From Chlorella sorokiniana (taxonomy: Eukaryota > Chlorophyta > Trebouxiophyceae > Chlorellales > Chlorellaceae), in NCBI GenBank assembly GCA_025917655.1, contig CP084615.1, forward strand, positions 1,984,001 to 2,048,000: a stretch of 64,000 nucleotides of DNA, read 5' to 3'. The notes beneath the pieces are model-generated. The model saw only the letters and a program-made list of their open reading frames with translations, made no database searches and was not told where the DNA came from. The translations under genes were made by a program, and so were the position numbers. This document shows positions 439 through 58,992 of this stretch, in pieces; position 1 is the stretch's first letter; every line of letters begins with the position of its first letter.

Positions 439-3400
439 CTAGGCAACCGAGGGGACTGGGTCCATGCCAGCCTGAGCAACGAAAATGACGATGACGGCGA
501 CGTTGAAGCCCACCTGCAGTTTCATGGCATAGAGCTGGGGTGTCGACGCCTCTTGAGCTGGCAACACACAGGCCCGTCCCCCAAACACACCACACACACC
601 ACCGCCAAGAAGCATGACGTCAACCACCCAACAACCATGCACCATCCGCAGCCAGATACCACTGCCTCCACCCACCAGCGTGCTCCAGAGGATGGTGCGG
701 TCGATGCGCAGGGCCACCGCCATCGCGTAGTCCTGGCTGCGCCGCATCTCCTCCCTCATCAGCCGCAGCTTGTACCAGTGCAACCGCAGCCAGCCGGGCT
801 GCGTTGGAGCCGCCACACCCCCTCCTACACCTGCAGCCCCGCTCCCACGCCCCTTCCTGCTAGGCAGCCCGCAGCACCCAGGCCGGGTGAGCCAGCCTGG
901 GAGGGCGTGTTTGGCGGCGCGCCATCCTCCTCGTCTGCTGCCGCAACGGGGCATGGCGCCTCTGAAACCCGCAGGCCGCCGTGACGAGGGCTGGACGCGT
1001 CGTCGCTGGGTGGCACGTCGCTGTCATCGTCGCCGCTGCTGCCCGCTGCATAGGCACCCATCCCTGCAAAGAAACAGCATGTCAACTCCACATGCACATT
1101 CCATACAATGCACGCGGTGCAATGAACCACACTCATGCCACAGCCACAAACTCAGCGCAACTGTCCACTCTTGGTATGAGCATGCAGCCCACCTGCTGCC
1201 AGCGGTGTAGCAGAGGGCTGTGCAGCCAGGCTGCCACCAACCACCGCTAGGCTGCTGCTGGGCGCGGGTGCAGGCCGGCTGCACTCCAAAGGAAGGGCAG
1301 GCAAGGCGGAGGGTGTGCCCTCTGCATGATCCAGCAGCTCTGCAGGGCCCATGAACCCCGCCTGCTGCTGCTGCTTGGCGGGCTGGCGCAGGCTCAGCCT
1401 GCCATCCCCGTCGGCAGGTGCCTGCTGCTGCCCCTCCAAGGCCGCCACCGCGGCAGACGCCGCAGCCACGCCCAGGCTGTGCGTGACGGACGCCCATCGC
1501 TGCGTGAACTGGCGCTGTGCCTGGCGCAGGCGGCGCCGCCGCTCGGCGGTGCGGTGCAGGTTGACCATCCAAAACACGACGATGCTGCAGATGCCAATGC
1601 CGCCCAAGATGCAGTACGAAACTGCACAGCACACAGTCAATCCTGATGCAGAGCTCACCGCGTTGACGGAGCAGCAGGAAGGGGATTGTTCTGGAGACCA
1701 CCCAACCACCCGGCCCGCACGCGCTCACCAATGATGAGCTGCTGCGTTGGCACCACGGTGTCGCTCGAAGGCAGTCCCACAGCAATCACAAACTGGAGGG
1801 CAGTCAGGCTCCTGCATGGGTGGCCAGGGGGGCTGAAGGGCGCGAATGAGCATGCGTCAAAGGGAACCTGAACCATCAAAAGGCAGGGGTTTGTGTGGTG
1901 GCAGTGTTTGACACCATCACGCACAGGAACAGCGTCACCACAATGCCGAGGCGCGTATCCAGGTGGCGCGGGTTCACCGAGAAAACCTGGGCATGATAGT
2001 GGTGGGAATGGGGGCATCCCAGCAACATCACCAGGGCAACGGGCCGATAGCTGCCGCTGCGTCAGGGCCAGCAGCGCGGCCCCTCCCCGCTTGCCCACCA
2101 GCAGCGCCAGGCATGTGTTGATGTACACAGGGAGGATGGCAATGATGATATAGTACAGCGAGATGCGTTGCACCTGGATGAAAATCTCCACGCCGTTCTG
2201 CAGTGAAGCAGGGGTGGAGGGGTGGGAATGGATGTGTAGGTGTGTGTGTGTGGCGGGGGCGGGGGCCGGGGGCGGGGGGGGGGGGGGGGCGCGGGGGGGG
2301 ATGGGGGGCGGGGGGGGACGCCGGGGGCAGCGACGCGGATGGTAGAAGACAGCACCCAATCCATCACAAGGCATGGGTGTTCAAGGCGGTCAGGTTCCGG
2401 ACAAGGCCCCACCTGCCACAGCAAGCCTTGGAAGGCGGGCTGACTGGGATCGGCCGGGTTGAGGGGCCAGGGGTCGCCTGGGGCACTGTAGGTGCTGCCT
2501 GCTACAACGGCACAGGTGGGCGGTTGCTTGAGACCCTGAACTCCCTCTGCAAATCACCGACGCATTGCAAGCGGTTTCAAACCGACAACTGGCAGACAGC
2601 GGCATCCCACCTGACTGCACCAGGTCCTGCTGAGACAGGTTGAACGTGCGCATTGTCATCCCCTTGATTGTCCATCCACTCAGCTCATCCCCGGTCGCTG
2701 GTGAGTAGAGCTGGGTGCCCGCGGCTGCATAGCCAACGCTAAGGTAAGGCGTTGGTCCATGTGCACGCGGTCTGTTCCATGCATGCGAAACAAACCATCA
2801 ACCCTGCCGCTCACCGCTGGGAACAATGTTGACGGGGGACTCTGGGTACTTGTTACCGTACTGCAGCTGCACGCTGAGGTACTGCGTGTCAAACGGGAAT
2901 GCATTGAACGACATGGGCGTGTACATCTCAGCCTGCAGACAGCAACAAGGGAGTCGAACTGTAAGCACTTCCCAAGGACCAGATGAGCCAGCCATGAGCC
3001 ACGGCGCACCTGGATGTGCTGCCACCAGGCCACCGCATCGCCCTCCCCAGCCGGACGCCATAGCGCACAACCCGGTCCTGGCTGAACCCCACCACGTTTA
3101 TGAACTCAAAGTGGGGCAGCCACACAGCGTCGCAGCACAGGTTTGTGGCGTTGGGGTTGCGGTCCCTGCGTGGCAGCCACAGCAGCGGCATCAAGGGCCC
3201 TGCCTCTGCAGCAGCGGCAGCGAGGTTTACACATATCATCGCAACAGTACTGAGGCCGTCCTGCCAGCTCACCACGCATAGATGGTGGTGCAGGGGTAGG
3301 CGCAGCCGTTGCCGTTGTTGTACGAGGGGTCAGTCAGGGCAGCCTGGGTGGAGGCGTTGACCGCAGCAGCTGCGCGGGCGTCACGCCATGTCAGCTGCAT

Positions 3401-3711
3401 GTACAGCACCACCTGCAGGGCAACGGCAAGCCAAAGCACAGAGGCCGGAGTTGGCAGGCAGGCATGGAACAGCAACGGTGAAAGCACCCCCTGCCAATTA
3501 CAAACGGGTCGACCCACGTTGAACTTGTACGCAGCATCGTCCACCGATATAAGATGATCCACGATGGCAGATACATAAACGTCAACACCCCGACTGGAGG
3601 CGTGTTTCTGCCTAGGAAGGGCGTCAGCTGCTGCCCCGCCACGCCGCTGTCGCTGCTGAGCAACAGCAAGGTCAGGAGGGCGGGCACCCACGCTGGAGCT
3701 GCCACCCTCAT
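439..3711 (-). CDS. pentameric ligand-gated ion channel, copy A (frame interrupted in exon 1)
   Basis: Tandem paralogue of the channel at 4191-7517 with the same exon order. It has an ATG and hydrophobic signal peptide at 3711. The extracellular beta-sandwich carries the loop segment LPHFEFINVVG and the Pro-loop FPFDTQYL. M1 (YYIIIAILPVYINTCLALL), M2, M3 and M4 follow, with stop TAG at 439-441. The family forms pentameric plasma-membrane or endomembrane channels gated by small ligands or protons. The Pro-loop motif is present but the two cysteines of animal Cys-loop receptors are not, as in bacterial GLIC and ELIC. In exon 1, near 3592, the copy has one base fewer than its neighbour, so the frame shifts after the segment NTPPVG. 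With the homopolymer problem seen elsewhere this may be an assembly error rather than a pseudogene. The exon 3 frame is also one base short, as in copy B. Confidence 0.75.
2236..2333. repeat. G-rich low-complexity tract in channel copy A intron
   Basis: A long plus-strand run of G with scattered C, T and A follows a short GT repeat. It lies in the intron just upstream (on the minus strand) of the M1 exon, where it forms a C-rich pyrimidine tract before the acceptor. The counterpart in copy B, at about 5993-6051, is shorter, so the tract length is unstable. Confidence 0.8.
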
Positions 3712-4190: not shown

Positions 4191-7100
4191 TCAGGCAACT
4201 AAAGGCTCAGCATCCATGCCAGCCTGGGAAGCAAAAATGGCGATGACGGCGACGTTGAAGCCCACCTGCAGAGACATGGCTCAGGGCCGGGGTGTCGACG
4301 CCTGACGAGCTGGCAAACACAGGCCCGCCCCCTTAACATACCAGTTCACCACCGCCAAGAAGCATGACGTCAACCACCCAACAACCATGCACCATCCGCG
4401 GCCAGATACCAATGCCTCCACCCACCAGCGTGCTCCAGAGGATGGTGCGGTCGATGCGCAGGGCCACCGCCATCGCGTAGTCCTGGCTGCGCCGCATCTC
4501 CTCCCTCATCAGCCGCAGCTTGTACCAGTGCAACCGCAGCCAGCCGGGCTGCGTTGGAGCCGCCACACCCCCTCCTACACCTGCAGCCCCGCTCCCACGC
4601 CCCTTCCTGCTAGGCAGCCCGCAGCACCCAGGCCGGGTGAGCCAGCCTGGGAGGGCGTGTTTGGCGGCGCCATCCTCCTCGTCTGCCGCCGCAACGGGGC
4701 ATGGCGCCTCTGAAACCCGCAGGCCGCCGTGACGAGGGCTGGACGCGTCGTCGCTGGGTGGCACGTCGCTGTCATCGTCGCCGCTGCTGCCTGCTGCACA
4801 GACACCCATCCCTGCAAAGAAACAGAATGTCAACTCCACATGCACATGCCATACAATGAACGTGGTGCAATGAACCACACTCATGCCACCGCCACAAATG
4901 CAGCGCCACTGTCCACTCTTGGTATGAGCATGCAGCCCACCTGCTGCCAGCGGTGTAGCAGAGGGCTGTGCAGCCAGGCTGCCACCAACCACCGCTAGGC
5001 TGCTGCTGGGCGCGGGTGCAGGCCGGCTGCACTCCAAAGGAAGGGCAGGCAAGGCGGAGGGTGTGCCCTCTGCATGATCCAGCAGCTCTGCAGGGCCCAT
5101 GAACCCCGCCTGCTGCTGCTGCTTGGCGGGCTGGCGCAGGCTCAGCCTGCCATCCCCGTCGGCAGGTGCCTGCTGCTGCCCCTCCAAGGCCGCCACCGCG
5201 GCAGACGCCGCAGCCACGCCCAGGCTGTGCGTGACGGACGCCCATCGCTGCGTGAACTGGCGCTGTGCCTGGCGCAGGCGGCGCCGCCGCTCGGCGGTGC
5301 GGTGCAGGTTGACCATCCAAAACACGACGATGCTGCAGATGCCAATGCCGCCCAAGATGCAGTACGAAACTGCACAGCACACAGGCAATCCTGATGTAGA
5401 GCTCACCGTGTTGACGGAGCAGCAGGAAGGGGATTGTTCTGCAGACCACCCAACCACCCGGCCCGCACGCGCTCACCAATGATGAGCTGCTGCGTTGGCA
5501 CCACGGTGTCGCTCGAAGGCAGTCCCGCAGCAATCACAAACTGGAGGGCAGTCAGGCTCCTGCATGGGTGGCCAGGCGGGGCTGAAGGGCGCGAGTGAGC
5601 ATGCGTCAAAGGGAACCTGAACCATCAAAAGGCAAGGGGTTGTGTGGTGGCAGTGTTTGACACCATCACGCACAGGAACAGCGTCACCACAATGCCGAGG
5701 CGCGTATCCAGGTGGCGCGGGTTCACCGAGAAAACCTGGGCATGATAGTGGTGGGAATGGGGGCATCCCAGCAACATCACCAGGGCGACGGGCCGATAGC
5801 TGCCGCTGCGCCAGGGCCAGCAGCGCGGCCCCTCCCGCTTGCCCACCAGCAGCGCCAGGCATGTGTTGATGTACACAGGGAGGATGGCAATGATGATATA
5901 GTACAGCGAGATGCGTTGCACCTGGATGAAAATCTCCACGCCGTTCTGCAGTGAAGCAGGGGTGGAGGGGTGGGAATGGATGTGTAGGTGTGTGTGTGTG
6001 GCGGGGGCGGGGGCGGGGGGGGGGGCGCGCGGTGGGGGGAATGGGGGCGCCGGGGGCAGCGACGCGGATGGTAGAAGACAGCACCCAATCCATCACAAGG
6101 CATGGGTGTTCAAGGCGGTCAGGTTCCGGCCAAGGCCCCACCTGCCACAGCATGCCTTGGAAAGCGGGCTGGCTGGGATCTGCCGGATGGAGTGGCCACG
6201 GGTCGCCTGGGGCACTGTAGGTGCTGCCTGCTACAGCGACGCAGGTGGGTGGTTGGGTGAGACCCTGATTTCCCTCCGCGAATCACCAAAGCATTGCAAG
6301 CGGTTTCAACCCGGCGGCTGGCATGCGGTGGCTCACCACCTGACTGCACCAGGTCCTGCTGAGACAGGTTGAGCGTGCGCATTGTCAGCCCCTTGACTGT
6401 CCACCCACTCAGCTGATCCCCACTGGCAGGGATGTAGAGCTGGGTGCCTGTGGCTGCAGGTAACAAGCAGGGCAGCGGTCACAGTACAGCAGCCTGTGGC
6501 AGCACTGCAACAAGTGCCCATTAAGGCCCTCTTAGGCCTCCGTGAAAGATGACTATTTGTAAAATTAGTTCAGTCACATTGCCTGCGGTTATTTGCTCCT
6601 TGGCACCAGCTCACCGCTGGGAACAATGTTGATGGGGGATTCTGGGTACTTGTTACCGTACTGCAGCTGCACGCTGAGGTACTGCGTGTCAAAAGGGAAT
6701 GCATTGAACGACATGGGCGTGTACATCTCAGCCTGCAGACGGCAAAAGGGAGTCGAACTGTAAGCACTTCCCAAGGACCAGATGAGCCAGCCATGGGCCA
6801 CGGCGCACCTGGATGTGCTGCCACCAGGCCACCGCATCGCCCTCCCTAGCTGGACGCCATAGCGCACAACCCGGTCCTGGCTGAACCCCACCACGTTTAT
6901 GAACTCAAAGTGGGGCAGCCACACAGCGTCGCAGCACAGGTTTGTGGCGTTGGGGTTGCGGTCCCTGCGTGGCAGCCACAGCAGCGGCATCAAGGGCCCT
7001 ACCTCTGCAGCAGCGGCAGCAAGGTTTACACATATCACAGCAAACAGGAAGAGGCTGCCCCACACACTCACCAGGCATAAATGGTGGTGCAGGGGTAGGC

Positions 7101-7517
7101 GCAGCCGTTGCCGTTGTTGTAGGAAGGGTCAGTCAGGGCAGCCTGGGTGGAGGCGTTGACCGCAGCAGCTGCGCGGGCGTCACGCCATGTCAGCTGGATG
7201 TACAGCACCACCTGCAGGGCAACGGCAAGCCAAAGCACAGAGGCCGGAGTTGGCAGGCAGGCATGGAACAGCAACGGTGAAAGCACCCCCTGCCAATTAC
7301 AAACGGGTCGACCCACGTTGAACTTGTACGCAGCATCATCCACCGAAATAAGATGATCCACGATGGCAGATACATAAACGTCAACGCCCCCGACTGGAGG
7401 CGTGTTTCTGCCTAGGAAGGGCGTCAGCTGCTGCCCCGTCACGCCGCCGCCGCCGCCGCTGCTGAGCAGCAACAAGGCGAGCAGCGCGGGCGCCCACGCT
7501 GGAGCTGCTGCCCTCAT
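4191..7517 (-). CDS. pentameric ligand-gated ion channel, copy B (Pro-loop type)
   Basis: Exons read on the minus strand: 7517-7317, 7211-7072, 6964-6809, 6732-6615, 6453-6340, 6227-6142, an M1 exon from 5945, then M2, M3 and M4 exons and a last exon 4265-4191. The protein starts with a signal peptide (MRAAAPAWAPALLALLLL). Its extracellular domain carries NLCCDAVWLPHFEF and FPFDTQYL. M2 assembles across a junction as RLGIVVTLFLSLTALQFV; with R at 0' it has Thr6', Leu9' and Thr12', the usual pore-facing set. M3 is followed by a long basic cytoplasmic loop (NLHRTAERRRRLRQ). M4 reads ALRIDRTILWSTL then VGFNVAVIAIF. The Cys-loop cysteines are replaced (Thr and Leu). Selectivity and ligand cannot be told. 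Exon 3 needs one extra base between RYGV and GDAVAWW to hold frame; copy A shows the same. The family call is firm, the exact exon ends less so. Confidence 0.85.
5993..6051. repeat. G-rich low-complexity tract in channel copy B intron
   Basis: Shorter counterpart of the tract at 2236-2333, in the same intron position upstream of the M1 exon. It contains a GT dinucleotide run, then G runs broken by single C. Confidence 0.8.
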
Positions 7518-8574: not shown

Positions 8575-9942
8575 TCACGGCGTTGCGCCTTCAGCAACAG
8601 CAACGTCGTGGAGACCGTCAGCCAGGCAGCCTTTGCTGGCGCCCTGTTCTCAGGCGGGCAACCCTTGTGGGCCCACCTGTGCAGGGTCCACCACCGGCAG
8701 GTCCGCCAGCGTGAAGGAGGAGGCCACTGTCTCCCGCATCAGGATGGCATTCTCCTCAGACACCTGGGCCAGGGCAAGCGGGTGGGCATGTGTAGGGGTG
8801 GGGAGCGGGGCCCACAGCAGCCACCCAGGCCTCCCGCCAACCGCGCGGCAGCAGGCGTGTGCCCCAGGCCTGCTGCCGCCCCCTGGGATCGCACCTGCTT
8901 CAACTCTTCAATCCACTCCTTGGCTATCTGGCTGCGGATCTCCATGATGCGCTGCAGCAACCAGGCAGGCAGGCAGACTTCAGGAGAGCAGGCGGTGGCG
9001 GCTAGGCCATGGAGTTGCGCAGCCAGAGTATGTGCAGGGCATGGGCATGAGCGTGCAAAGACCTGCGCACGATTCAACGACAGCAGGGCAAGCTGAGGCG
9101 AGACCTGTGCTATGTTGCGGGGGTCCACTCCGAGCGGCGACGACTTGGCAAACATTTTGTCGCGGCCTGCACCCACTCAATACCGTGGGGTGGGGCGGTT
9201 GGCAGCATACGAATGCGCAGCCACGACATTGCAGCGATGCAGCACGCGGGCATGCATTCTCCCAGGTGGACCTCACCATAAAAATCCCAGCGAGTCTCCT
9301 CGATCGGCATGCTAAGCAGCTTGCGCAGGAAGTTTTCGCCGCTCACGTCGTCCCAGCTGCCCTCCTGCGCAGGTAGGCGGCGGGCAGAACTGGTAAGTGA
9401 GCAACCAAACCAGGCAGCAGGCGACAGCTGCATACATGTGCGGTCACAGCGGCATTGATACAAGCGGCGGCAGGGCGCCACCAGCGAGTGATGTGAGGTG
9501 GAAGCCGGCGCGTTGCATGCGCCGCCCTGAGATTCTGCGCACCCTGGGGATCGGGTTCTCCGTCATGTAGTATTCCAGCCATTGCATGAGCGTGGGGTTG
9601 AGCTCCATGAAGTAGAAGATGAGGGTCTTTGCAGCGCGCTCCGTCAGCAGCCCCATCAGCAGGTCTCGGTTAGCCACGCGCAGCGGCGTGTCGCTTGGAC
9701 TGCATGTGCCAGCAGAAACAGTTTGCTGTGATTGGCAGCGGGAGCCAGTGAAGCAAACAGCAGATACAAGGGTGGAATGCAGACCCCCTCCGCATCCCTA
9801 AGGCAGCCAAAAACAACGCTTGCTGGGCCGCTGACCCTGCAGGGCGGAGGCGGCGGGGGGCGCTGGCTTTGTGAGCTTTGCGCCTCTCCTTGATAGCTGC
9901 TGCTGCGTTGCCTGTCGCCCGGCCGCCGCTTGCTGCTGCCAT
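8575..9942 (-). CDS. RbcX: RbcX-like Rubisco assembly chaperone
   Basis: RbcX dimers are plastid chaperones that clamp the C-terminal tail of the Rubisco large subunit during L8 assembly. Exons: 9942 to about 9827, then from about 9711 to 9543, 9364-9277, 9166-9105, 8951-8895, 8763-8677 and 8643-8575, all GT-AG with matching phases. The protein is about 210 residues. A basic Ala-rich leader (about 36 residues, suited to plastid import) precedes the helical core, with VANRDLLMGLLTERAAKTL, ELNPTLMQWLEYYMTENP, ENFLRKLLSM and NIAQRIMEIRSQIAKEWIEE in order. That order and spacing match eukaryotic RbcX. A C-terminal extension of about 40 residues follows the core. The start is the first ATG in frame; a longer leader on an upstream exon is possible. 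Confidence 0.75.
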
Positions 9943-10489
9943 CGTCGCTGCCTCGCCGAAAACTGGCACCGCTGCTCACCACCTTGCCGCAGGCACCAGG
10001 CCTCGCTGTTGGTCTGCAAAGTGCAGTAGAGGATTGCATCGAAACGCAAATTGCAATTGGCCGCTGTAGGCTCTCCTGCCAAGCTCAGGACTGGTGACGC
10101 CCTGTAGGAGGCTTCTGTTTAGGGTGCCAAACAATTGATTGTGCAGTGAAAAGGTGGCGTCAGCATGTCGGGCAGCAGATCTTAGCAGGCGCTGCCGTGA
10201 TAGGCGCGAATGCATGGGCAGCGAGGGCAGGGACTGTGTAGTGACGGCGGCAGCTTCACCCACCGCCACATGATGCCCAAGCAGAATCCTGTTGCACGCT
10301 CATTTGTTGTAGCTGAAAGAATCACGAATGCCTTTTTGGAACGGGAATGCCAGACTGTGTGCGCCGCCTTTTGAGGGTCTCTTGAGTGAGCAGGCAGCTG
10401 GTCGCCGGGCAGCGGACGCGGCAGCGTACGCTGCTCGTTTCAGACAGCTTTCTTGGGTAGCCTGCTGATGTGCACTTGCGCCGCAGCAT
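9943..10489. other. intergenic, RbcX 5' side
   Basis: It lies between the RbcX start and the stop of the next minus-strand gene. I found no supported coding exon, although an out-of-frame transit-peptide-like ORF (about 10039-9950, minus) could be an extra leader exon of RbcX. Confidence 0.4.
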
Positions 10490-10849
10490 TTACTCCCGCG
10501 TGTAATCAACCTGAACTCTGTCCTTCACCAGTTTCACTGCTGGACCCAGCACGGTGCTGGACGTGCGAGTGTGCGCCTCGGGGTTGCTTGGCGCCAGTTC
10601 GGCGGCAGTGGATGTGGCTGTGCCGAGAGAATCCTTGGTGCCTGCACACCCGGAGGAATGCCAATCAGGAGATAACACGCTGGCAGCCAGTCCAGCGCAG
10701 CGCTGCACTCAGCAGTAGCCACCTTCCTCCTCCTCCAGCTGGTGCATCCCCTTCTCCGCCACGGCATTCGCTCGCTCCGCCAGCCTGCGCAGCTCGTCAG
10801 AGCCGGCGCTGCTGAACTCCTCCTTGCCCTGCCTGCTCGGATCGGCCAT
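10490..10849 (-). CDS. small helical protein, local family member 1
   Basis: Two exons, 10849-10723 and 10641-10490, encode a 92-residue protein. Exon 1 carries the shared helix ELRRLAERANAVAEKGMHQL and ends with a phase 1 GT donor after a run of four Glu. Exon 2 is Ser/Thr-rich and ends VKDRVQVDYTRE. There is no signal peptide or membrane segment. The exon 1 helix resembles those of the genes starting at 12364 and 14081, and all three have a phase 1 first intron at the same place. I do not recognise a named family. The function is unknown; a coiled or dimerising helix is the only structural hint. Confidence 0.6.
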
Positions 10850-11753
10850 TGGTTATGCTGCCTGCATTGCCAGGCAGTGCAGCAGGAAGCATTACAGTTT
10901 ACTTTAGCATTGGTGGCACTAAGCTTTTCACGCTTGACTGATGGCCTTGGACAAGATCCCCACTAGCCAGGCAACCTTGACATACTCACCTGCTTATTCG
11001 CTATGAGCACGGTCCAAGGGAAAACAGAGCTGTGAAGTTCTGAAATAGTGCCACGGGCATTTCAAGGTTGCAGCCCTTCCCAGCTACTGCCGCCACACTT
11101 TCCAACAGTGGTCACTATACAACTGCAACTGCTGTCAAACACAAGTTACATCATATTGATTTGAATCCAATTTTGCTTGTAACACTGACAAAATAAGGTT
11201 ATCAGCAGGCAGGCAGGCAGGTGGTTTGGCAAGGGCACTGGCGGGGGGTTGATTGCGGAGGTGACCAGAGAAGGTGACACTCGAGACCAATCAAAGTGGT
11301 CGCGCCTGAAACGACGCGCAAGGCTTGAATGAAAGCGGGCACTCAAGAAGCATGGATGGATGTTTCAAAAAAGCAAAAAAGGCACTGGAAGTCAAAACTG
11401 GTGGGGCAGAGCCAGATCACTGAGCTGCCAACGGTATAGTGTTCCCAGGAAGTAGTGGGCTGAGAACATGACACAATTGCGGATGCAAACACATTGCTCA
11501 GCTGTGCTTGTATAAAAGAAGTTGGCAGCCAGATGGCAGCGGCAGGTGGCAATTGTGGCAGGGAAGGGCTGCATCAGTCGTTAAGTGGCTTGTGTTTGCG
11601 CAGCTGATGTTTTAGGGGTTGCTGGCGGGCATGCTTGTGTGACGCTGCCGAGCAGCGGATCATTAACCCCGTGTTGCTGGACGGGATCATGGCTGGGTGG
11701 CCGTGTTCAGCTGCTCTCCACAAGTGGACGGGATCATGGCTGGGTGGCCGTGT
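10850..11753. other. gene-free stretch with a tandem repeat at its right end
   Basis: It holds the 5' flank of small gene 1 and the 3' flank of small gene 2. The only structure seen is a 47-bp tandem repeat beginning at 11678. No coding exon is supported. Confidence 0.45.
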
Positions 11754-11771
11754 TCAGCTGCTCTCCACAAG
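11678..11771. repeat. two-copy 47-bp tandem repeat across a stop codon
   Basis: The unit at 11678-11724 is repeated exactly at 11725-11771. The minus-strand small gene 2 ends inside the right unit (stop at 11754-11756), so the duplication copied the end of its reading frame into the 3' UTR. Confidence 0.9.
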
Positions 11772-12364
11772 ATTAAAAGCGGACAATGTGGCTTGCTGCT
11801 GCTCCGCCAGGGTCTCTGCCACTGTGGCTGCCACGGCTGCCGCCTCCGCAACCAACTCCGCGCTCGACTGGCGCAGCAAGGTGAAGGCTGTTGTGAGGGC
11901 AGACCTTGGGGTGTTGGTGGGTGTGCTGCCAGGGTTGACAGGCTGGACCTCGACCTCGATATCAGGCATGGCCAAGCTGGCCGCTGTGAGTGCGGCGTCA
12001 CAGGTAACGGCGAGGGCTGCCTGGCTGGCAGCGCTGGCTGCTGTTGTGAGGATGCTGGCCACCACAGGAGCGGTGAGCAGGGCAGCGGCTCCGGCAGCCA
12101 CCCTGGTAGCGGCGACAGCTTCTGCCTGGCTAACAGCCGCGGCGGGATCCTCGGTCGCTGCGAAGGAGAACATTGACGAAGTGAGAAGGGAGAGGAGCCA
12201 GGAGTGTTGGCTGCCAGCGGCTGCAAGCACCGAAAAGACACCAGGCGGCACACATGCGCAGGCCCTTATTCACCTGCACACTGCTCTCGTAGCAGCTCTA
12301 GGCCACGCTTGATGACATTGGCAGCCGCGGCGTGAACCTCCAGCAGGTTGGTGCTTGAAGCCAT
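11754..12364 (-). CDS. Ala-rich helical protein, local family member 2
   Basis: Exons 12364-12274 and 12157-11754 encode 164 residues. Exon 1 is MASSTNLLEVHAAAANVIKR followed by GLELLREQCA. Its helix matches the neighbouring small genes ([AN][AN]V[IL]xRG[LV]ELL), and it also ends in a phase 1 GT donor. Exon 2 is very rich in Ala, Val and Thr, with predicted long helices around LLRQSSAELVAEAAAVAATV and LAEQQQATLSAFNLVESS. There is no signal peptide. The composition recalls phasin-like or apolipoprotein-like amphipathic proteins, but nothing specific supports that. The function is unknown. Confidence 0.6.
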
Positions 12365-13528
12365 GTTGTGATATGTTGAAGGGCTGGCAAGACGGGGAAA
12401 GGGAAGGATAAGTCGCGAATGGATAACCAAGAGAGATACAGGCAGGGCCTTAGGCCCTTTTTATTGAAGACAAGCTTTTCGAAGCTGTCTGACTGGATCC
12501 TACGGAGGTAGCTGTCGGTGTATGCGCCCTCCCCGACATTCAAGCTGCAGGAAACATTGCCCGACTGTGCCATCGATGGCCGTCTTAAAGTGTTTTACGC
12601 ACATGCATGGCCTTCCAGTGATTTGTTCGTGGGCATGTTTGTGCATGTGTGAGCAGCTCAGAGAAGCGGCGCGAAGAAGCCGAGTGCTGGTACTGAGGAA
12701 GCAGCTTGGCCAGATGGCAGCAGCCACTGCTTCATTGCAGTTTGTACCCGCAGCGCTTGGCTACTCTGCGTGCTTTACAGAGAAGGACAGGAGGTCTGCA
12801 ATTGCCAGCATACACATCCCTCAGATATCACTTGCGCAGAAAGTGGCGCAAAAAACACTGAGACTGCGTGGGCGGGAGAGGGTTGGCGATGAGAGGATAA
12901 TGTTGGCTGAATCAGGGATCAGCAGAACCAGGCTGCACCATACAGTTGCGCTCTGCTTGTGGTGGCAACTCACCAAAAAAGGGGCGCGTGCGTGGCGGCT
13001 GAAAAAAAAAACGGCGCGGATGGCATAGTACGCGCACAATGGCAAGCAAGCTGGAAGCACAATCATGGAACCAAATGGGGGCAAGCGGGCTGACTGCCCC
13101 AGCTCAAGAAAGGTTGTGAGCAGGCGGTATATGGCGTAGCGGGGGCATGAAGGGTTTGCACGAAAGCTCGTGCATGAAGACTGACGACAGGCCAGTTGAA
13201 GTGGGCTGATCAGTAGGCATGGCAAAAGGAAGAGTGCATGGCACCAGTTCCCGCACTGACATGCAGCAAGATGGGCAGCATGCGGGCTGGGCAAGAACAG
13301 AGGCCTCATGGGTGGCCAGGTGCCCGCTGAGGGGCTAGCAGTGTTCTCATTCTTTGCGTATGTGGGGAGGGCCTAGCTGTGCAAGTATTCAGTGCGTCAT
13401 GTGTTGGTTGTGGGCGTTCTCTCTTGATTAGGGGTGCTGACGTCTGATCTGCCTTCGACGCGACAACTGGTCTGGCTACTTGCTGCTGTGACGGGCTGCC
13501 GATGAGGGCATCCGGCATGAGGGCGACG
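12365..13528. other. gene-free stretch between small genes 2 and 3
   Basis: It holds the promoter of small gene 2 and the 3' flank of small gene 3. Notable only for a short perfect hairpin at 12444-12458 followed by T residues. No fourth copy of the small-gene exon was found. Scattered ORFs lack support. Confidence 0.4.
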
Positions 13529-14081
13529 TCAGCTGTAGGCTGCGGCTCCAGAGCCTGCTGCTAGTCCCGCTCTGCGCAGGGCGTCGGTGAGCGCAGAGCG
13601 TGGCGTGACGGCAGCGTGCATTGCTGATGACGATGAGGGTGAGGAGGGCGGAGTGCGTGGCGGGGTGGCCTCGCTGCGCAGCGTCACTAGGCCCTCGGTA
13701 AGCAGGGCATGCGACAGTGCGCTGCGGGGGGACAGTGGGCGGACACCGTCGGCGCCGTGCAGAGCGCCAGGCATGGCTGCGCCAGGCGCGGCAGCTCCAC
13801 TGTGGCCTGAAGCAGGGAGTGGCGGGCGACTCGGAACCGTCAGCAAGGGTTACGACACCGATGCATGCACAGGCAGCGGCTGGGGGTTCGGCGCGTGGTG
13901 GCCTCGCAAAACGCATTGTATCGGCAGGCGCGGCGGCAACCTGCAGGCATAGCCAGCCCCGATACTCGCCTGCAGATGCTGAGAGCAGTTCAACTCCACG
14001 TTGAAGCACCGCGTTCGCTCTGCATGCGAGTTCCTGAAGCTCTGCCAGACTTTGGGTGGGTGGTCTCGGCGCAACTTCCAT
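13529..14081 (-). CDS. small helical protein, local family member 3
   Basis: Exons 14081-13970 and 13806-13529 encode about 129 residues. Exon 1 carries LAELQELACRANAVLQRGVE, close to small genes 1 and 2, and again ends in phase 1. The donor appears to be GC (CTGCAG then GCGAGT) because no nearby GT keeps the frame. Exon 2 is Pro/Ser-rich and contains an internal repeat, SPRSALSHALLTEGL and TPRSALTDALRRAGL, separated by a Ser/Pro linker. There is no signal peptide or membrane segment. No known family was recognised. The repeated SPR/TPR sites could be phosphorylated, which is inference only. Confidence 0.6.
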
Positions 14082-14515
14082 AGACTAGCGATCAGAGGGC
14101 ACTATGAAGGCAAATTGGTGCGAATGACAGATACAGGGAGGTTTCGCGTGAGCCTTTTGCTACCACTCAGCCGCCACAGGGGATGAACTTTCAGTGCAGC
14201 ATCCTCCGCCCCTCGATCAAACGGACGTCGCAGAAGGCGATCGAAGCCAAGGATCAAGAGGAAAGAGGGTCAGCGAAGCTTACTGAGCTCAATCTCAGCA
14301 CCAGAACATGCGCCTTGCCAGGCGCCGGCGCTAAAGGCGGCCGCAAGCCTACGCACGGACCTTTCAAATTGTTGAAAAACTTCAAAATTACAACTTCTGA
14401 GAATTTTTCAGGACAATCCATCAACACAACATTCATTGAAAAAGAAAATTCGATGGGCGACAATGGGGGTCCGGCTCCATTTCAGGAACGGAGGTGCCCC
14501 ACGCTGTGGCTGCAG
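14082..14515. other. gene-free stretch, small gene 3 upstream region
   Basis: It holds the upstream flank of small gene 3 and the 3' flank of the hydrolase gene. An AT-richer patch at about 14363-14455 may be part of a promoter. No gene is seen. Confidence 0.45.
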
Positions 14516-57342: not shown

Positions 57343-58992
57343 ATGGCGGCAGCTGCTGCGCAGACCAGGTTGCAGGAGGCAGAGCCTGCAGCAGCAACGC
57401 ACGCCGCAGAACATCGGTCCTGGGCCCAAGTTAATCCTGGCAAGTGACAACGGGGCGCTGCTGCTGGCAACAACCTTCGGCTGCCGCCGCCAGCTAGGTG
57501 CTGTGGCTTTTCGCCTGCTTCTGTTGGTTGGAAAGAAACCTGTCAAGCATTTAACTCAGTTTATCTCCTATGCTTGCAGTTGTCGCAAATTTCGCAGCAA
57601 GCGGTGCTAGCGTGGCTACAGGCGAGATCAAGCAGCAGCATTTGCTGGCCGCAGATGGTGCCCTGCCGAGGCTGGCCTCAATTTCGACCTTGATGCCCCA
57701 ATGTTGACGCCTTGGCTGCAGGGGTGGTCTTAACCAACTGGGTGGATGTCATCAAGGTGCGGCAGCAGCTAGCGGGGAGCGAAGCTCGCAACCTGGCGGC
57801 CACCGGGTGGCAGGTGGTGCGGCATGAGGGGCCGCTGGCTCTGTGCAAGGGCATCACGCCCGCCGTGGCGCGCGGCGTGCTGTACGGAGGTGAGCCACGT
57901 GCCGTGGGGGGTGCAGCACGGCCGTCTGGGACGTTAAGGACAAGGTATCGAACATACAGAGTGAAGTTGAAGTATAGGTTGAAGTTGAATCAAGCTGAGT
58001 TCCTGGGATTGCTGAGCGATGCTTCAAGCACCCATTCTTCTCGGGGATCCCGTCCTGTGTTCGAGGCTGCTTGTTCAGCAGCAGCCATCCGCAGCGACCG
58101 CACCCCAGCCCCACTCTACGCCTGCTCCTGCAGGCCTGCGCATCGGCCTCTACTCCCCTCTGAAGGCGGTGCTGGGGGCGGAGAGCCGGGACAGCAGCGC
58201 CATCGCGTCCAAGGTGGCGGCCGGCATGCTGAGCGGCGCGCTGGCGGCGGGCATCTCGAACCCCACCGACCTGGTCAAGACGCAGATGCAGAAGGGCGGC
58301 GGCGCGCAGGGCGGGCCCTTTGCCGTGCTGGCGCGTGTGGTGCGCGCGGAGGGCGTGCGCGGCCTGTGGGTGGGCACAACACCCAGCATGGTGAGGCAGT
58401 GTGACAGGGCGTTGCGGTGGTTTTGCGCAGCGCGGCGGCCGTTGCAGCCTGGCCAGCTGCTGGCCTGTCTTGAGCCATGCTCAGCTGGCTGGCCGTCCTT
58501 CCCAAGAGGTTCCCCGGGCGCCTGCAGGCGCGCGCCGCGTTGCTGACGGCGGCGCAGTGCGCCACGTACGACGAGCTGAAGCTGTTCTTCGTGCGCAGCC
58601 TGGGCTGGGAGGACAACCTGCAGACACACTTTACTGGTGGGCAGGCCCCTGCTCAGCACATGCGCCGCAAGCCTCTCCTGGACTGGGGCTGGTTGCCCTG
58701 CCGCGGCCGCTCCCACCGGTCCAACGCTGCCTGCGCTGCAGTGAGCGGGCTGGCGGGGCTGGTGACCACCACTGTGACGGCTCCAGTGGACATGATCAAG
58801 ACCAACATGTTTGTGCGGCCAGACCTATACCCCACCCCCACCCAGTGCCTGCGGCTCATCGTGGCGCAGCAGGGGGTGCGCGGCCTGTTCAAGGGCTGGG
58901 GCGCGCAGTGGGCGCGGCAGGGCCCCATGACCACAGCCATCTTCTGCATCAGCGAGTGGCTGCGAGGCGCGTTCGGCATGGACAGCATATGA
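57343..58992 (+). CDS. mitochondrial carrier family protein (UCP/dicarboxylate-like)
   Basis: The family moves metabolites or protons across the mitochondrial inner membrane with three two-helix repeats. Repeat 1 starts VVANFAASGASVATG and GVVLTNWVDVIKVRQQLAG; repeat 2 has AAGISNPTDLVKTQMQKGG; repeat 3 has VTTTVTAPVDMIKTNMF. Repeats 2 and 3 keep PxDxxK, but repeat 1 has Trp in place of Pro (WVDVIK). EGPLALCKGITPAVARGVLY, VRGLWVGTTPSM and VRGLFKGWGAQWARQGP are the usual matrix-side helices. The first two introns use GC donors: 57440-57579 and 57622-57721; GT alternatives meet stops. Stop at 58990-58992. The substrate is not predictable with confidence. Confidence 0.8.

Follow-up and report, generated by a model that had tools for sequence, protein, structure and literature searches.

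Tandem families of small proteins that belong to no curated family occur in many genomes. The three small genes considered in this study, here called A, B and C, resemble such families: they are adjacent and head-to-tail, have the same exon layout, lack a Pfam match and carry diverging tails. They differ from them in two respects: what is conserved in A, B and C is one helix, some 22 residues long, and the copies look old, not recent. A second point of comparison is EPYC1 (peptides 7jsx_q and 7jfo_q), together with CsLinker, which is described in PMC11570498 as a Chlorella pyrenoid linker. As in these proteins, the tail of C is rich in Ser, Ala and Pro, holds a short site twice and includes an RSAL string. 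Unlike EPYC1, to which their similarity stays at chance level, A, B and C contain no Trp, and their PRSAL sites number two in C, one in B and none in A.

The genes lie in a window of 64 kb, meaning the whole stretch of DNA that was analyzed, which has a high GC content (57 to 73% per 2 kb) and contains spliced genes. The neighbors of the cluster and the style of its genes suggest a green alga. On the strand that carries the cluster, an alpha/beta hydrolase gene (PF00561, E 1.2e-11) lies upstream. Downstream of gene A, and directly adjoining it, we found an RbcX-domain gene on the minus strand (about 8700-10039). Its match to PF02341 is just above the cut-off (28.2 bits against 27, E 2.5e-6) and its match to AtRbcX2 is weak (E 0.01), and both rest on a model whose exons were joined by eye. 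The Ser/Arg-rich N-terminus of this neighbor could be a plastid transit peptide. Farther away, two pieces at 57694-58989 on the plus strand match the mitochondrial carrier family (PF00153). A tandem duplication (441-3656 and 4193-7456, spacing about 3.75 kb) occupies the left end of the window. It comprises 10 repeat blocks that are 81 to 99% identical, eight of them at 93% or more; four ORF pieces of this duplication gave no Pfam match at E 0.01.

The three gene models lie on the minus strand at the coordinates given by the initial annotation, and the positions of their start (ATG) and stop codons are confirmed. Each model consists of two exons, the first of which falls within the claimed length of 30 to 42 residues in all three (Table 1). 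The first intron, likewise claimed to be in phase 1 throughout, is predicted in that phase in A, B and C; all three introns were called from splice consensus only. The predicted donors follow a shared Gly codon by 25 (A), 28 (B) and 25 nt (C). The introns of A and B are of the GT-AG type and that of C is of the GC-AG type, with the donor CAG|GCGAGT. The choice of this C intron is supported by the spliced frame of exon 2, since it holds two PRSAL sites, a motif that recurs in B. An unspliced version of C was considered as well and rejected: a 202-codon open frame exists, but the PRSAL motif sits in another frame. Codon usage, for which only 394 training codons were at hand, put the model frame in first place among the six in both exons of A and in exon 1 of B, in second place in exon 2 of B, in third place in exon 2 of C and in fifth place in exon 1 of C. 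We did not take this ranking as proof of coding; it goes against C, whose codon usage does not look coding-like.

Table 1. Positions of the exons, introns, tail motifs and candidate upstream elements of genes A, B and C in the window.
Feature	Positions	Strand	Remarks
Gene A exon 1, 42 codons + 1 nt	10723..10849	-	helix at 10736-10801
Gene A intron, phase 1, GT-AG, 81 nt	10642..10722	-	predicted
Gene A exon 2, Ser/Thr-rich tail	10490..10641	-	protein 92 aa
Gene B exon 1, 30 codons + 1 nt	12274..12364	-	helix at 12290-12355
Gene B intron, phase 1, GT-AG, 116 nt	12158..12273	-	predicted
Gene B exon 2, tail rich in Ala and predicted to be helical	11754..12157	-	protein 164 aa
Gene C exon 1, 37 codons + 1 nt	13970..14081	-	helix at 13983-14048
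Gene C intron, phase 1, GC-AG, 163 nt	13807..13969	-	predicted; PRSAL frame of exon 2 supports
Gene C exon 2, Pro/Ser/Ala-rich tail	13529..13806	-	protein 129 aa
TPRSALTTAF motif, gene B exon 2	11883..11912	-	in spliced frame
SPRSALSHAL motif, gene C exon 2, first copy	13703..13732	-	in spliced frame
TPRSALTDAL motif, gene C exon 2, second copy	13577..13606	-	in spliced frame
CCTCCCTGTATCTGTC, candidate shared upstream element, weak	14126..14141	-	ends 44 nt before C start codon
CCTGCCTGTATCTCTC, partner of C upstream element, weak	12431..12446	-	ends 66 nt before B start codon

The feature that unites the three genes is the helix of exon 1. The initial annotation had described it by the motif L..LA..ANAV..RG..LL. 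As a regular expression, run over six frames of the window, this motif matches A and C, but B is not matched: it has VH in place of LA, and its Asn comes one residue later (AANV for ANAV). In gene A, K takes the place of R, and of the two final L the first is replaced by Q. Over 22 residues the helices are identical at 11 positions between A and C and at 9 between B and C. Shuffled peptides had been named as the control for this likeness, and the outcome depends on the pair: compared with composition-preserving shuffles, the exon-1 similarity stands out for A-C (p 0.0002; 0 of 5000 shuffles) and B-C (p 0.001), but it is weaker for A-B (p 0.014), a pair whose full-length similarity is weak as well (p 0.16). 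A leave-one-out profile of any two of the exon-1 helices returned the third as the top non-training segment in six frames, clearly in the case of C (E 2.4e-5), but with poor E-values for A (0.058; next chance match 0.26) and B (0.21; next 0.48).

With the A and B exon-1 peptides supplied as alignment, AlphaFold models exon 1 of C as a single helix that spans residues 12-36 (mean pLDDT 88.3). In all three exon-1 helices the hydrophobic moment is above that of shuffles (p 0.005, 0.016 and 0.022). By their spacing, the residues L, L/V, A, V, G and L/Q would form a heptad-like face, as expected of a helix that packs against a second one. The model of exon 2 of B, built alone and without an alignment, contains three helices and is of moderate confidence (mean pLDDT 72.5, pTM 0.49); none of the 30 matches up to E 10 in a fold search with this model reached E ≤0.001, the best (E 1.1) being a designed protein.

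The second exons, by contrast with what the initial annotation had stated, are not all unlike each other. Those of B and C have [ST]PRSAL in common, including the exact 7-mer TPRSALT, which is their longest common substring (p 0.002, 3000 shuffles). Allowing the wider pattern [ST]P[RK][ST]AL, we found three places in six frames of the 64 kb, one in exon 2 of B and two in exon 2 of C, in the spliced frame. Over the whole of exon 2, however, the local similarity of B and C reaches only a p of 0.07, and the internal repeat of the C exon a p of 0.06. In comparisons with 2000 shuffles each, the tail of A shows no similarity to that of B (p 0.15) or that of C (p 0.65), and exon 2 of A has no [ST]PRSAL site. 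We take the [ST]-P-R of the PRSAL sites to be a possible proline-directed phosphosite.

If A, B and C are duplicates, their likeness lies in the protein rather than in the DNA. Different codons are used at 8 of the 11 identical helix residues of A-C and at 7 of the 9 of B-C, and third codon positions of the helix are identical at 5 of 22 in every pair. Identical residues of the PRSAL sites also differ in codon (5/6, 4/8 and 4/7). Hence the copies would not be recent and, if they are duplicates, would be old. We rejected a recent duplication on account of these codon differences and of the introns and 3′ regions of the three genes, whose similarity is not significant. Upstream of the start codons of C and B there is a 16-bp element, CCTSCCTGTATCTSTC, with no further copy in the window at up to two mismatches; gene A is without it. 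The B-C upstream match is weak (p 0.046) and hardly better than a different match between A and B (p 0.054); for A-C the upstream alignment has a p of 0.10. Some smaller features of the flanks may be recorded here. An exact 47-bp tandem duplication (11678-11771) covers the 3′ flank of gene B together with the stop codon, so that the stop is duplicated too. The 3′ flank of B and that of C have a 16-bp near-repeat (94%) in common (11528-11543 and 12709-12724); the local alignment of these flanks is not significant (p 0.13). TGTAA is the polyadenylation signal of green algae. On the minus strand it follows C (at 12779) and B (at 11150 and 10896), and there is none between the stop of A and the RbcX model.

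The earlier statement that the genes belong to no named family held in Pfam searches with A, B and C and in PDB searches with C and the helix profile. The full proteins matched no Pfam-A family up to E 10 in any of the three cases. Full-length C had no PDB match by sequence, the helix profile reached E 1.2 at best, and the PRSAL segment of C had one match at E 0.89, which we regard as chance. In viral contigs the three-gene alignment, B and A gave 149, 72 and 70 pattern stretches, respectively, none of which was confirmed (tblastn, 1e-3); in prokaryotic genome contigs the alignment and C gave 239 and 447 stretches, again with none confirmed. ‘No known family’ means no curated family here, and orthologues may well exist in other algae. 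None of the titles and abstract beginnings listed in our paper searches describes an A-B-C family, and we make no claim of its absence from print.

How can the likeness of the three genes be explained? In a GC-rich genome it might be possible that unrelated short ORFs with Ala/Leu-rich N-termini look alike by chance and that the best-looking set was picked. We therefore scored the first 42 residues of every pair of ATG-ORFs that lie on the same strand no more than 4 kb apart; the B and C sequences thereby extended a few residues beyond the donor. A raw score of at least 49 was reached by 36 of 8063 pairs: 30 are copies within the left-end tandem duplication, one is A-C, and five others lie outside the duplication and so score as high as A-C. 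After removal of the ORFs with a start below 7600 (74 of 527), a pre-filter with 25 shuffles and a recheck of 168 pairs with 1000, A-C ranked second and B-C fourth of 6725 shuffle-corrected pairs; A-B was not among the best 15. The first rank went to an ORF pair that looks meaningless (+53386/+54178). Chance would be expected to yield roughly one such pair, and similarity alone is therefore no proof. The E-values at which the leave-one-out profiles reach A and B, and the codon usage of C, also speak for chance. Against it, two of the four best pairs converge on ORF C, and separate features agree: the position and phase of the intron, and a PRSAL motif that occurs in the spliced frame of B and C only. 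The convergence on C, the agreeing intron position and the tail motif are more than chance gives, and we consider a chance origin unlikely, though not negligibly so. The evidence is better read as pointing to a related trio that shares an N-terminal helix and an intron.

A related trio could also have arisen by the route that the initial annotation had favored, in which copies of the helix exon alone became attached to unrelated second exons. The tail of A, without detectable similarity to B or C, is what such copying would leave behind; yet fast divergence of a loosely constrained tail accounts for A equally, and exon-1 copying does not predict TPRSALT in exon 2 of both B and C. Since these two share a tail motif, an old whole-gene duplication fits the B-C pair better than copying of exon 1. 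The proposal thus lacks support for B and C while A stays compatible with it, and as an account of the locus we find it rather improbable. It has also to be asked whether the cluster is tied to Rubisco biology, its products being adaptors that act with the neighboring RbcX or EPYC1-like Rubisco binders. The RbcX domain (PF02341) of the next gene downstream invites this idea, as does ‘VTP-RSAL’ in C, which resembles ‘VTPSRSAL’ of the EPYC1 peptide 7jsx_q. However, gene neighbors need no functional link, and the resemblance of C is at chance level (p 0.27, or 0.08 with cheap gaps). A search of the PDB up to E 10 with the PRSAL segment of C did not match EPYC1, and the Trp of the EPYC1 peptide has no counterpart in the three proteins. 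As candidates for an EPYC1-like linker, A, B and C were rejected on both stretches (5000 shuffles each): p 0.61, 0.36 and 0.27 for 7jsx_q and 0.66, 0.75 and 0.62 for 7jfo_q. A link to Rubisco is therefore very unlikely.

Descent of all three genes by old tandem duplication would go as follows. Whole-gene duplication, best supported for B and C, would have produced the small two-exon genes, and their N-terminal amphipathic helix, with the phase-1 intron directly after it, would have been kept through divergence. B and C would have retained short [ST]PRSAL sites while the rest of the tail changed fast. The helix might serve as a docking or oligomerization module, and the tail might offer short sites to a partner, possibly as proline-directed phosphosites, so that A, B and C would be related adaptors differing in their tails. 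That the B-C pair and the A-C pair are each old tandem paralogues we regard as probable. For homology of all three, combined with some adaptor role, we lean towards yes with less assurance. The sequence shows open frames with splice consensus, the likeness of the helices, the predicted intron position and the tail motif; the homology of all three genes, the helix packing, the phosphorylation and the adaptor function in this scheme are inferred. A further-reaching version is doubtful: that the genes represent an undescribed algal family of small adaptors, built from a conserved helix and [ST]PRSAL sites and spread by tandem duplication with free tails, in which PRSAL would act as a new short linear motif with a regulatory role.

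In conclusion, nothing found here indicates a new mechanism. If the relationship is real, A, B and C would be old paralogues that are recognizable only by one helix, by where their intron lies and by a site of six residues, and that our family search misses. They would then make up an uncatalogued family of small algal genes and provide a short motif that can be tested.
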